This document shows positions 4,531 through 9,840 of a DNA stretch of 64,000 bases, piece by piece. The notes below the pieces were generated by a model. The model did no database searches. It had not been told where the DNA came from and was given only the letters and a program-made list of their open reading frames with translations. How positions within the stretch are numbered: the first letter of the stretch is position 1; each line of letters opens with the position of its first letter. The position numbers were made by a program, and so were the translations under genes. The DNA comes from Humisphaera borealis (GTDB lineage: Bacteria; Planctomycetota; Phycisphaerae; Tepidisphaerales; Tepidisphaeraceae): positions 5,332,001 to 5,396,000 of the forward strand of contig NZ_CP063458.1 of NCBI RefSeq assembly GCF_015169395.1. The letters run 5' to 3'.

Positions 4531-6261
4531 ATGCAGAACTCCAAGCCGAACAAGCGTATTCCGATGCGATGGGTGTTGGCCGCCGCGATCGCAGGCCCGG
4601 TCATGGGGCTGATGGGGTTGCCGGCGCCGGCGCAGTACCGGGTGAACCAGGACGGCTCGGCGCGCGACGCGAACAACCGCGTTGGCAGTTCCGGGCGCAA
4701 CGACGGCGGGCCGATCGCCGGCAGCGGCGTCACGCCGGACATGATCATTTACGGCAACGTCACCAACAGCAAATACTTTCGCGGCCCGACCGCCGCCCCC
4801 GACGCACGCGCCTTCCGGGGCAACACCGGCAGCGGTGTCTCGGACAGCTTTATTCGCGATTCGTCCGGCGGCTACGACAAGACGTCTGTCACGCAGCGGT
4901 TCACCCCCACGGCTTACTACGGCGATGCCCGCGCCGTCGCGGCACCCGCCGGCTTCGTGCCGACCAAATCCACCACCGTCTATAACACCAATCAGCCGGC
5001 CCTGGCCTACAGCTCGGCGGCCAATCTCGGTTCGCTCAGCACCGGCGAAGGGCTTGTTCCGAAGCTTGGCAGCGCGATCACCGCGCTCCCCACACCCAAT
5101 ACCGGTGCCCAGGCTCCCAACTCGGCGATCGTCATGTCGCCGCTCGGGGGCATTCGCCAGCTGGGCTTCGGCGAAGAGCCGCTGAACAACGACATCTACA
5201 CGATCCGTAACGGCTCGATCGTGCCGTCGGGCGCATCGACTGACCGGTTCCGCACCGATCGCCAGATGCTCGAGAAGATGCAGGATGAGCTGACCGCTCC
5301 CGGACAGGGCGTTGAGAAGAAGACGCCGTCGGGACTGGAAGGCACCCAGCCACTCGGTCAGCCGTTGGAAGGGCCCGCGTCATCGCAGTTGAAGTCGCCG
5401 GCGCTCAAGGGAAGCACGCTGGACAGCAACACGCTGCAGTCCGGCGTGAACAGCGAAATGGGGCTCCGCCGACAGCTCGCAACGCCGGCACAGCAGAGCC
5501 AGCAGATGAACGAACTGGAGCGTCGCCTGCGTGAGCGGCAGGGCGATCGCCCGATGACGGGCCAGGAGATCCAGCGTGATCTCAACAACGCCGCTGCCGC
5601 CGCCAAGAAGCCCGCGGCCAAGCCGGGAACACCCGGAGCACCGACGCCCGGAGCACCGGGCACGCCGACACCGGGTTCGCCCACCCCCGGAACGCCGGCA
5701 CCGGCCGTCACGCCGGCCATTCCCATGCCGGCGACGCCGAAGGCCGATCCCCTGATGATCAAGAGTCTCGCCGCCGGCGTCAGCGCCAAGAGCTTGGCCG
5801 ACGTGCTCACCAAGGCCGAAGTCCTGATGAAGGACGGCAAGTTCGCCGAGGCACTGGATCAGTACGACCTGGCCGAGCGGGCCGCGCCGAACAACGCACT
5901 GATCACCCTCGGCCGCGCCAACGCCGAGCTGGGCGCGTCGTCGTACCGAAGCGCCGAAACCCATCTTCGCCAGGCACTCGGCGGCGAGCCGGCACTTCTG
6001 CTCGGCAAGTACGATCTGCAAGGCATGATCGGCACCGACCGGCTCGCGATCCTCACCAAGGACCTGCGGGATCTGGCGGCCAATGAGCCACGCGAATCGA
6101 TGGCCAGCTTCCTGCTGGCGTACATCGCCTACAACACCGGCAGCGACGCCGAAGCCGCCGGGCACCTCAACGAGGTCACCAAGCGAAGCGGTGCTGCCGA
6201 TCCGGTGGTCGCCAAGATGCGGGAACTCTGGTCGCTGCCTGGTGGCGGGCTGAATAAGTAG
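4531..6261 (+). CDS. secreted TPR-repeat protein with Pro-rich linker
   Basis: A 576-residue protein. Residues 1-35 form a signal peptide (basic start, GPVMGLMGLPAPAQ). A Ser/Asn/Gly-rich, probably disordered part follows, then a coil-like, Gln-rich stretch, a proline-rich linker at about 354-407 (GAPTPGAPGTPTPGSP) and two tetratricopeptide-type helical pairs at about 430-500 (KFAEALDQYDLAERAAPNNA). TPRs bind other proteins, so this is likely a periplasmic scaffold. The ATG at 4531 is chosen for the signal peptide and an AGAGG box upstream; the 32 codons before it look non-coding. A good terminator follows 50 nt after the stop. No specific function is recognised. Confidence 0.82.
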   Translation: MQNSKPNKRIPMRWVLAAAIAGPVMGLMGLPAPAQYRVNQDGSARDANNRVGSSGRNDGGPIAGSGVTPDMIIYGNVTNSKYFRGPTAAPDARAFRGNTGSGVSDSFIRDSSGGYDKTSVTQRFTPTAYYGDARAVAAPAGFVPTKSTTVYNTNQPALAYSSAANLGSLSTGEGLVPKLGSAITALPTPNTGAQAPNSAIVMSPLGGIRQLGFGEEPLNNDIYTIRNGSIVPSGASTDRFRTDRQMLEKMQDELTAPGQGVEKKTPSGLEGTQPLGQPLEGPASSQLKSPALKGSTLDSNTLQSGVNSEMGLRRQLATPAQQSQQMNELERRLRERQGDRPMTGQEIQRDLNNAAAAAKKPAAKPGTPGAPTPGAPGTPTPGSPTPGTPAPAVTPAIPMPATPKADPLMIKSLAAGVSAKSLADVLTKAEVLMKDGKFAEALDQYDLAERAAPNNALITLGRANAELGASSYRSAETHLRQALGGEPALLLGKYDLQGMIGTDRLAILTKDLRDLAANEPRESMASFLLAYIAYNTGSDAEAAGHLNEVTKRSGAADPVVAKMRELWSLPGGGLNK

Positions 6262-6311
6262 GTCGGTGCGATATCGAGCGGCTTCGGCCGCGTAACATGA
6301 TTTCCAAATAG

Positions 6312-6348
6312 ACGGCGACCCGAGGCAGCCTCGGGTCGCCGTTCTGTT
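6312..6348 (+). terminator. rho-independent terminator of the TPR gene
   Basis: A perfect 14-bp stem (6312-6325 with 6329-6342, core ACGGCGACCCGAGG) with a 3-nt loop, followed by TCTGTTTT. Confidence 0.85.
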
Positions 6349-6373
6349 TTGTACATGCAGGGCCGACAGGGCA

Positions 6374-6403
6374 TGAAAAAACCCCGGGAAGAACCCGGGG
6401 TTG
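6374..6403 (-). terminator. rho-independent terminator of nuoC (minus strand)
   Basis: On the minus strand AACCCCGGG / CCCGGGGTT form a 9-bp stem (6394-6402 with 6380-6388) followed by a run of T (the plus-strand A run before 6380). It lies 230 nt past the nuoC stop and back-to-back with the TPR terminator. Confidence 0.7.
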
Positions 6404-6450
6404 TGATCGCTCAGGCGGACCTGACGGGCTCCAGCCTGAGAAAATAAAGA

Positions 6451-6502
6451 GTCGGGGGTGGAGAAGGAGGGGGGGGGCCTTCTCCGGGGGGAGACCCCCG
6501 AC
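6451..6502. other. long imperfect hairpin in the nuoC 3' region
   Basis: GTCGGGGGTGGAGAAGG pairs with CCTTCTCC...ACCCCCGAC across a G-run of about nine; one arm carries a G-rich bulge. It would be transcribed with nuoC before its terminator and is G-rich enough for a quadruplex alternative. Confidence 0.5.
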
Positions 6503-6633
6503 AAGCCGTCACTGCCAACGTTAATCGGCCCGACGGATGTGCTGACCTAAAGTTAACATACAGGGTCCGAGGTTCAAGGGGACAGCCGCGAAATAGGGAA
6601 ATCCCTTTTCCTGCGAAGAGCTCGCTAAGGTCT

Positions 6634-7134
6634 CTATTTCTGTTGCCAGTCGAGTTCGACGCTTCCAGGAATGCCGTGGTATTCGCGCGGGAAGACATAG
6701 TCCTTCTGCAGGGGATGGGACACCCAATCGTCGGCAAGAAGGATCCGGCGCAGGTCTGGATGGCCGGTAAAGGTGATACCGACCAGGTCGAATGCCTCGC
6801 GTTCGTGCCAGTCGGCGGCACGCCAGAGGTGCGCTACACTGGGAATTCGTGCGTCGTCGCGGGCGACGAAGACTTTCACCGCCAGATCGTGGCGATGGTC
6901 GAACGACCAGAGGTCGTAAACCGCCGCCAGTTTGCCGTCAGCGGCATAGTCCACGCCGCTCAGGCAGCGGAGCCAGTCGAACCGCAGCGTGGGTTCGTCA
7001 TGAAGGTAGGTGGCAACATCCAGCCAGCGGTCGGCCTGGAGTTGGAGGCGCGGGTGCGGACCGGCGGAAATGGTTTCGACCTGATCGCCGAAGCGCCCGA
7101 CGATCGCCTCAAAAATCTGCTCGGTGGTGGCCAT
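6634..7134 (-). CDS. nuoC: NADH-quinone oxidoreductase subunit C (30 kDa), stand-alone gene
   Basis: A 166-residue homologue of the NuoC/30-kDa subunit, part of the peripheral arm of respiratory complex I on the cytoplasmic face of the membrane. The family signature EREAFDLVGITFTGHPDLRR lies at residues 111-130, followed by the expected LLADDW and PLQKDYV. Length and ends fit the family, so the gene is complete. The ATG at 7134 is chosen because homologous sequence starts there. It is not flanked by nuoA, B or D: the neighbours are an unrelated TPR gene and a divergent zinc-protein gene, so the complex I genes must be scattered or this is an extra copy. Confidence 0.9.
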   Translation of the reverse strand: MATTEQIFEAIVGRFGDQVETISAGPHPRLQLQADRWLDVATYLHDEPTLRFDWLRCLSGVDYAADGKLAAVYDLWSFDHRHDLAVKVFVARDDARIPSVAHLWRAADWHEREAFDLVGITFTGHPDLRRILLADDWVSHPLQKDYVFPREYHGIPGSVELDWQQK

Positions 7135-7186
7135 GCATCCCAAGCGTAACCGAAACCACGGACCCGACGTCAAGGCCCCCTCGAAT

Positions 7187-7462
7187 ATGCCGCCCGTGGG
7201 TGCGTCGATGGGCTCGATGCGCCTAGGATCAGTCGTGAAGACCGGCAAGCGAAAATCGAAACGGCGACGCCGCCGATCTGCCGACGAAGGCTCCTACGTC
7301 TGCCCGTCGTGCGGGGAACAGATCGTCATTCCGCTCGACCGCTCCGAGGGGAGCGATCAGCGGTACGTCGAAGACTGCCCCGTGTGCTGCAACCCGAACG
7401 TGATCAGTGTCGAGTACGACCCGGCGTGGACGGAACCGCGCGTCTGGGCGGAAGCCGAATAA
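7187..7462 (+). CDS. CPXCG-type small zinc-ribbon protein
   Basis: About 91 residues, with two Cys pairs, CPSC (39-42) and CPVC (64-67, followed by another Cys), separated by 21 residues as in the cysteine-rich CPXCG family, whose role is unknown. The N-terminal third is strongly basic (KRKSKRRRRR) and may bind nucleic acid. The start is uncertain: ATG codons at 7187, 7208 and 7217 are in frame, and earlier ones would overlap the divergent nuoC start. No strong ribosome-binding site decides between them. Confidence 0.75.
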   Translation: MPPVGASMGSMRLGSVVKTGKRKSKRRRRRSADEGSYVCPSCGEQIVIPLDRSEGSDQRYVEDCPVCCNPNVISVEYDPAWTEPRVWAEAE

Positions 7463-7624
7463 GCCGACCGCGATCGCCGGACACTCACGGTTGTCCTGCA
7501 CAACGGCAAATGATTGGTTCGTACGGTTCGAAGCCGGGTTTATCGTTGATCGCCAATGAGTGCCGCCGGACAATCGAATCGGTTGTTGGCAATGAAATCG
7601 GTGCACAGGAAGAGGACTTTGAAC

Positions 7625-9218: not shown

Positions 9219-9246
9219 TTGACCGCCTGAAATCACTGGATATAGT
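9219..9246 (+). promoter_or_regulatory. probable sigma-70 promoter of the tRNA array
   Basis: TTGACC (9219-9224), 16-nt spacer, TATAGT (9241-9246): four and five consensus matches or better. It is the best promoter-like site in the 250-nt gap and lies about 190 nt upstream of the first tRNA, oriented towards it. Confidence 0.5.
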
Positions 9247-9436: not shown

Positions 9437-9507
9437 GAGCGTGTGGCCGAACGGTCAGGCGCCGGTCTGCAAAGCCGGTTAAGCGGGTTCGATTCCCGCC
9501 ACGCTCT
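9437..9507 (+). tRNA. tRNA-Cys (GCA)
   Basis: A complete 71-nt cloverleaf: acceptor stem 9437-9443 with 9500-9506, D stem GCC/GGC, anticodon arm CCGGT-CTGCAAA-GCCGG giving anticodon GCA, a short 4-nt variable loop, T arm GCGGG-TTCGATT-CCCGC and discriminator U73, the known bacterial cysteine identity base. CCA is not encoded. It is the first gene of a four-tRNA array. Confidence 0.93.
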
Positions 9508-9569: not shown

Positions 9570-9644
9570 CGCCGCCGTAGCCCAATTGGCAAGAGGCGCC
9601 GGTCTCAGATACCGGAGGTTGCAGGTTCGACTCCTGCCGGCGGC
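9570..9644 (+). tRNA. unusual tRNA-Leu (CAG) with short variable loop
   Basis: A 75-nt cloverleaf with a perfect 7-bp acceptor stem (GCCGCCG with CGGCGGC), 3-bp D stem (GCC/GGC) with a 12-nt loop containing GG, anticodon arm CCGGT-CTCAGAT-ACCGG and T arm GCAGG-TTCGACT-CCTGC. The anticodon CAG reads the leucine codon CUG and the discriminator is A73, as in leucine tRNAs. The variable loop is only AGGTT; bacterial leucine tRNAs are type II with a long paired variable arm. Position 37 is A where leucine CAG tRNAs have G. CCA is not encoded. It is a sound tRNA gene by structure, but its charging is open. Confidence 0.78.
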
Positions 9645-9676
9645 ATTTGGTTGTGAATGCGAGATTCGAATGACTC

Positions 9677-9750
9677 GCTGCGGTAGCCCAACTGGCAGAG
9701 GCCACGGATTGAGAGTCCGTGCAGTGCGGGTTCGACCCCCGCCCGCAGCA
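9677..9750 (+). tRNA. unusual tRNA-Leu (GAG) with short variable loop
   Basis: A 74-nt cloverleaf: acceptor GCTGCGG with CCGCAGC, D stem GCC/GGC with an 11-nt loop, anticodon arm ACGGA-TTGAGAG-TCCGT (anticodon GAG, leucine CUC/CUU), 5-nt variable loop GCAGT, T arm GCGGG-TTCGACC-CCCGC and A73. All stems are perfectly paired, which argues against a decayed copy. Like its two neighbours it lacks the long variable arm of leucine tRNAs and has A37 after G36. The D arm, with three pairs and a large loop, resembles that of normal type II leucine tRNAs. No encoded CCA. Confidence 0.78.
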
Positions 9751-9767
9751 TCACCGCGCCCCTGAAC

Positions 9768-9840
9768 GCCACGCTGGCCCAACGGAAGAGGCATCCGGCT
9801 TAAGATCGGACAGTTGAGGGTTCGACTCCCTCGCGTGGCA
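9768..9840 (+). tRNA. unusual tRNA-Leu (UAA) with short variable loop
   Basis: A 73-nt cloverleaf: acceptor GCCACGC with GCGTGGC, D stem GCC/GGC with a 10-nt loop, anticodon arm TCCGG-CTTAAGA-TCGGA with one G-U pair (anticodon UAA, leucine UUA/UUG), 5-nt variable loop CAGTT, T arm GAGGG-TTCGACT-CCCTC and A73. The long variable arm is missing and position 37 is G, where UAA tRNAs normally have a modifiable A. CCA is not encoded. Confidence 0.77.

Follow-up and report, generated by a model that had tools for sequence, protein, structure and literature searches.

Type I leucine tRNA genes from a second tRNA set in Humisphaera borealis and their counterparts in other bacteria

Results

Three leucine tRNA genes without the long variable arm

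The analysed window, a stretch of 64,000 nucleotides from the Humisphaera borealis chromosome (contig NZ_CP063458.1, positions 5,332,001 to 5,396,000), contains a group of four tRNA genes, hereafter cluster C, with a promoter-like sequence in front of it (positions are those of the window):

9219-9246, + strand: match to a sigma-70-like promoter, TTGACC-16-TATAGT (10/12), upstream of cluster C
9437-9507, + strand: divergent second tRNA-Cys(GCA), first gene of cluster C (ARAGORN; Rfam RF00005, 63 bits)
9571-9645, + strand: type I tRNA-Leu(CAG), variable loop AGGTT, A15-U48, A20a, A73
9677-9750, + strand: type I tRNA-Leu(GAG), variable loop GCAGT, A15-U48, A20a, A73
9768-9840, + strand: type I tRNA-Leu(UAA), variable loop CAGTT, A15-U48, A20a, A73

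The initial annotation of this DNA had recognized three well-paired leucine cloverleafs with anticodons CAG, GAG and UAA, 5-nt variable loops and A73, and this description is borne out by ARAGORN, by Rfam and by explicit pairing. Both programs call all three genes; with a gathering score of 29 bits, Rfam RF00005 scores them at 62.0, 50.3 and 53.2 bits. Pairing is complete in the acceptor (7/7), D (3/3), anticodon (5/5, with one G-U) and T (5/5) stems, and C13.A22 next to the D stem is open. The variable region has 5 nt in each gene; a type II tRNA has at least 10. Fold energies lie modestly below those of shuffled sequences (z from -1.6 to -2.4); the strong support for the genes comes from covariation. 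For 34 distinct type I tRNA-Leu, of which 31 come from relatives and three from the window, pairing holds in 672 of 680 stem cells, most positions of the acceptor and anticodon stems show at least three pair types, many of them compensatory, and the C13.A22 mismatch is kept in 33. Thus the window genes are products of neither chance nor decay, and the existence of three armless tRNA-Leu genes is confirmed. The promoter match, one found where shuffles give 0.2, is weak evidence.

The tRNA-Cys(GCA) of cluster C, which the initial annotation did not contain, has its top match (0.77) in the array tRNA-Cys of relatives; the genome has one further Cys gene, at C1:2200916-2200989. Judged by eye, the genes around cluster C look ordinary and chromosomal, and no repair gene, EF-Tu gene or gene for an amino-acyl-tRNA-using enzyme was seen beside it.

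A second tRNA set in the genome

The 7.19-Mb genome, a single contig, carries 69 tRNA genes. It has a full housekeeping set, including five type II tRNA-Leu (UAA, CAA, UAG, CAG and GAG). The proposal of a coherent second leucine-anticodon set, which had been made dependent on a listing of the other tRNA-Leu genes, therefore stands: the armless genes coexist with these five, to the best of which they are 0.65-0.72 identical when the arm is removed. In addition, the window genes belong to a diverged second set of about 21 tRNAs in three clusters of 13, 4 and 4 genes, the other two of which had also escaped notice:

Cluster A, C1:4478732-4480478: Ile, Arg, Lys, Lys, Arg, Ser, Ser, Asp, Phe, Thr, Met, Glu, Tyr
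Cluster B, C1:2816395-2816804: Ala, Asn, Gln, Gly
Cluster C, in the window: Cys, Leu (three genes)

The isotypes of the three clusters are disjoint, an outcome with a chance of about 0.003 under random isotype sampling. A tRNA array unit in the published sense is a cluster of about 20 tRNA genes or more (PMC5966550). Each of the H. borealis clusters is smaller, while clusters of relatives reach 32 genes; the redundancy and divergence expected of an array unit are present here, a full normal set being encoded alongside. Relatives of the same family have long arrays with a gene order near that of cluster A and with the isotypes of clusters B and C in place, for instance Ile, Arg, Lys, Lys, Leu(CAG), Arg, Ala, Leu(GAG), Leu(CAA), Ser, Ser, Asp, Phe, Gly, Thr, Met, Gln at locus L357. 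The simplest interpretation is therefore that an array has been split and that its Leu/Cys portion now lies in the window.

Counting only ARAGORN-confirmed genes, type I tRNA-Leu occur in 14 of 101 genomes searched, H. borealis included and most of the relatives' genomes being incomplete. Several matches of the first search among relatives were discarded: four (L056-L058 and L080) fall inside the variable arms of type II tRNA-Leu or tRNA-Ser, one (L072) is a tRNA-Met, and others lie where ARAGORN calls no tRNA. A second tRNA-Pro(TGG) of H. borealis (G000:C1:4784674-4784748; L460 175-249) has a poorly paired acceptor stem and is possibly a remnant.

Genes adjoining the second-set tRNAs

Directly downstream of cluster B, and in its orientation, lie genes for an RNA ligase of the DRB0094 type (TIGR02306) and a paralogous EF-Tu (TIGR00485):

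L010 5953-7314 and 7265-8353 (G000:C1:2813.9-2816.4 kb), - strand: EF-Tu paralog and RNA ligase, downstream of cluster B

Identity between this EF-Tu and the housekeeping EF-Tu of the same genome is about 64%, as against about 76-89% among the housekeeping EF-Tus of the family. Among the 12 array-bearing genomes in which EF-Tu linkage was inspected, one from a related genus (G011, L450) has the similar group Gly, Ala, Gln, Gln, EF-Tu, Asn, another (G020, L359) has a diverged EF-Tu inside its array, and a fourth paralog (G019, L449) is without tRNA linkage. Linkage of the RNA ligase was found in the own genus only and is absent from G011 and G004.

Other arrays of the relatives contain or adjoin RNA-repair genes. 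RtcB together with band-7 and HNH genes lies beside the array of locus L362 (7262-8602, 5009-6604), RtcA and a Ro60-like protein beside that of L363 (3937-4974, 6954-8666), and RtcA beside that of L367 (4695-5726). At L357 (16421-17482), and similarly at L358 and L359, JAB and ThiF genes of the ubiquitin-like conjugation type are found near a weakly matching VWA/Ro60-like gene. The array of L366 is adjoined by genes for nicotinate phosphoribosyltransferase and nicotinamidase (4977-7574).

Unusual variable regions are seen in other second-set isotypes as well. The second-set tRNA-Asn(GTT) has a long variable region in two genera (13 and 14 nt; L010 8511-8594 and L450 8610-8695), the mirror image of the armless leucine tRNAs. 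Variable regions of 17 nt and 18 nt were observed in an array tRNA-Cys (L061 494-578, in L363) and an array tRNA-Asp (L059 1383-1469, in L368), respectively.

Leucine identity of the armless tRNAs

The leucine determinants of E. coli are A73, A15-U48, G18G19 and A20a, the anticodon and the long arm not being among them, and E. coli tRNA-Leu variants without the arm remain active (PMC9976931). All three window tRNAs have A73, A14, A15-U48, G18G19 and A20a, and the combination of A14, A15-U48, A20a and A73 is shared by all five type II tRNA-Leu of the genome. The same combination occurs in 23 of 24 type I tRNA-Leu of relatives, which were collected by anticodon and T arm only, without reference to these determinants, as against 16 of 92 other type I tRNAs from the same loci. 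A D stem of 3 bp with open 13-22 is likewise found in the three window tRNAs, the five own type II tRNA-Leu and 30 of 31 type I tRNA-Leu of relatives; the other class I array tRNAs (n=140) have a 4-bp D stem in 120 cases and the 3-bp form in 12. With the arm removed from the comparison, the window tRNAs are on average nearest to type I tRNA-Leu of arrays or of other phyla. The best leucine match of Leu(CAG), however, is at 0.79 and its match to a housekeeping tRNA-Arg at 0.76; since these are nearly equal, identity alone does not settle the ancestry.

A search of the genome for a second LeuRS found none, and therefore both sets of leucine tRNAs depend on the one LeuRS present. The 3:70 pairs of the window tRNAs are C-G, U-A and C-G, with no G3:U70, which excludes AlaRS, and the combination of A73 with the missing long arm excludes SerRS. 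Nor do these tRNAs resemble allo-tRNAs (Ala/Ser): they lack the G3:U70 of the Ala type and, with a 7-bp acceptor stem and a short variable loop, also the longer acceptor domain and long arm of the Ser type. In the relatives' arrays the leucine tRNAs are short in 21 of 22 cases, a ratio biased by the choice of loci for type I tRNA-Leu, whereas tRNA-Ser (12/12) and tRNA-Tyr (7/7) are long. This pattern is expected if LeuRS alone tolerates the loss of the arm. Taken together, these features strongly support the inference that the window tRNAs are probably charged with leucine, although the array tRNAs may be poorer LeuRS substrates than type II tRNA-Leu.

Type I tRNA-Leu in other bacteria

GTDB genomes and viral contigs were sampled by a D-arm pattern combined with a leucine anticodon, so that the D-arm features of these samples are not independent evidence. 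Nearly all matches listed for this pattern are type I tRNA-Leu. Among them, Actinobacteria have a single chromosomal UAA or CAA gene and, in a few cases, UAG or CAG; cyanobacteria have type I tRNA-Leu in arrays of Cylindrospermum, Microcoleus and Moorena; and further listed matches come from Planctomycetota, Acidobacteria and Rokubacteria records and from phages. The class is thus widespread in bacteria and not a local oddity. The general statement of the initial annotation that bacterial leucine tRNAs are type II is correct for the five housekeeping genes of H. borealis, but does not extend to bacteria in general.

When 30 actinobacterial genomes chosen from pattern matches were searched with the UAA pattern, 29 gave type I tRNAs and no confirmed type II tRNA; one long-arm UAA candidate, from Saccharopolyspora (G117), received no tRNA call. 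The genome without a match is that of Klenkia (G119), whose type I gene is present (L152) and was missed because its T loop reads TTCGAGA. The complete genome of Mycolicibacterium sediminis, all of whose 46 detected tRNAs were tabulated, has single-copy UAA and CAA leucine tRNAs (L401, L415), both type I, and type II tRNA-Leu for CAG, GAG and UAG. As the two type I tRNAs are its only readers of UUA and UUG, they must be leucylated; this argument rests on a LeuRS different from that of the window host.

Discussion

A leucine-accepting reserve set

The observations above are best explained if the window genes encode leucine-accepting isoacceptors of a second tRNA set that is held in reserve for conditions of tRNA damage or translation inhibition, and we consider this explanation likely to be correct. 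The long variable arm would have been lost, or never have been present, while the tertiary core and the discriminator read by LeuRS were retained. The single LeuRS of the host would charge the armless tRNAs with leucine, and they would decode leucine codons on the ordinary ribosome. The possibility of LeuRS charging despite the missing arm, raised by the initial annotation, agrees with the presence of one LeuRS, with the retained determinants and 3-bp D stem, and with the sole-copy genes of M. sediminis, all of which suggest such charging from sequence.

The second set would most likely step in for damaged housekeeping tRNAs or under inhibition of translation. A reserve role is the best supported one, on two grounds, the stress induction of the Anabaena trn operon and the RNA-repair genes and second EF-Tu that flank the arrays. 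The Anabaena operon, with 26 genes, remains off unless translation is inhibited, in which case it promotes survival, and RtcB belongs to the same regulon (PMC10272220). We infer that the H. borealis set would be expressed and used in a comparable way.

An extended form of this explanation is tentative, and we think it improbable as a whole: the near-complete tRNA set, its own diverged EF-Tu and the RNA ligase would form a second translation kit that runs when a toxin or nuclease disables housekeeping tRNAs or EF-Tu, with armless tRNA-Leu escaping agents that recognize type II tRNA-Leu while still being charged by LeuRS. In this form the architecture of the second set is partly swapped, with short Leu in it and long-armed Asn in two genera. 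Arm loss as an escape from agents recognizing type II tRNA-Leu is speculation.

Alternative explanations

The genes could instead be inert remnants of a phage- or plasmid-borne array that entered the lineage and fragmented, the leucine genes persisting unexpressed and unused. In favour of this reading, phage contigs and plasmid arrays of cyanobacteria often hold similar type I tRNA-Leu, the host already possesses a complete housekeeping set, and its array is split. However, the stems are intact in all three genes, with the compensatory changes in relatives described above. Moreover, the non-overlapping isotypes of the clusters and the recurrence of the cluster B/EF-Tu group in a related genus suggest retention by selection. 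We therefore regard inert remnants as unlikely.

A use outside the ribosome is much less probable still. The armless tRNAs might be donors, decoys or regulatory tRNA-like RNAs, such as substrates of a peptide-bond-forming ligase or bait for a tRNA-cutting toxin; the redundancy of the second set with housekeeping tRNAs fits such a use, and the RNA-repair genes linked to relatives' arrays make a bait or sacrificial role conceivable. The initial annotation had also mentioned a non-ribosomal use, but among the neighbours of cluster C, inspected by eye, no amino-acyl-tRNA-using gene was seen. In addition, the anticodon and T loops are of the elongator kind, most isotypes are covered, which a donor role does not need, and the EF-Tu paralog adjoining cluster B points to the ribosome.

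Attachment of a different amino acid, another suggestion of the initial annotation, is not supported: the LeuRS determinants are retained, G3:U70, a long arm and G73 are lacking, and the remaining synthetases read anticodon bases. The corresponding reading, in which the altered body is charged by another synthetase and leucine codons are misread in some condition, is consistent with the clash of body and anticodon class under the textbook rule and with the existence of allo-tRNAs inserting Ser at Leu codons (PMC7609411), but is the least credible of all, given the leucine determinants kept across relatives, the absence of AlaRS and SerRS signatures, and the reading of UUA and UUG in M. sediminis by the type I class alone.

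Relation to known systems

The closest chromosomal counterparts are the type I Leu(UAA) and Leu(CAA) of Actinobacteria, including mycobacteria, which likewise have a short loop, A15-U48 and A73 and share with the window tRNAs the D-arm signature UAGCCCAAYYGGCAGAGGC (UAA). The actinobacterial genes are single-copy housekeeping genes for UUR codons; those of the window coexist with a type II set that makes them redundant, and they cover CUN codons as well. In M. tuberculosis only Leu-2, -3 and -5 are named as long-armed (PMC11541572), which implies that its other leucine tRNAs are short. A short variable loop was noted in passing for the array tRNA-Leu(TAG) in the tRNA cluster of M. mucogenicum and M. 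phocaicum (PMC6582537). As in the window, a type I array tRNA-Leu there accompanies a type II housekeeping isoacceptor, but that case concerns one gene in one array, whereas here there are three isoacceptors, a dispersed set and an analysis of identity determinants.

The trn operon of Anabaena sp. PCC 7120 is a second, redundant tRNA set like that of H. borealis (PMC10272220). Arrays on a related Nostoc plasmid and in cyanobacterial genomes likewise include type I tRNA-Leu. The Anabaena set is one long plasmid operon under TrcR; H. borealis has its set on the chromosome, in three clusters, one of which lies beside EF-Tu and RNA ligase genes. Genes known from RNA-repair operons (RtcB/RtcA/Ro60; DRB0094-type ligase) adjoin second-set arrays in this group, but the paper on the Salmonella rtcBA operon mentions no tRNA array (PMC7790460), and cluster C itself is without a repair gene. 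Finally, LeuRS also charges animal mitochondrial tRNA-Leu(UUR), which has no long arm (PMC9976931); that tRNA is organellar and structurally unstable, in contrast to the fully paired, GC-rich tRNAs of the window.

A 2023 review of tRNA identity describes tRNA-Leu as long-armed everywhere but in animal mitochondria (PMC9976931). In the open-access literature searched, we found no paper treating type I tRNA-Leu as a class and none linking tRNA arrays to an EF-Tu paralog, so that priority is uncertain on both points. The class is thus widespread yet barely described. It contradicts the long-arm rule for bacterial leucine tRNAs: leucine tRNAs can take the type I form provided that the core LeuRS determinants are retained, and at least one mycobacterium relies on such tRNAs to read UUR codons. 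The dispensability of the arm in E. coli, long a laboratory result, becomes testable in nature, and isotype annotation of tRNAs is affected. The tie of array tRNAs to EF-Tu and RNA-repair genes also suggests what the arrays are for.

A blast search of phages with the window tRNAs gave, among the top matches, mostly other isotypes, together with tRNA-Leu of Streptomyces phages. In Streptomyces phage SparkleGoddess (L418 141-3626), type I Leu(TAG) and Leu(CAA) follow shortly after an annotated RNA ligase and polynucleotide kinase. In a Gordonia genome the 3' part of type I Leu(UAA) is matched twice, 16 kb apart (G107:C10:83724-83752 and 99863-99891; L458, L459); only one is called as a full tRNA, and the pair may mark the attachment sites of an integrated element.
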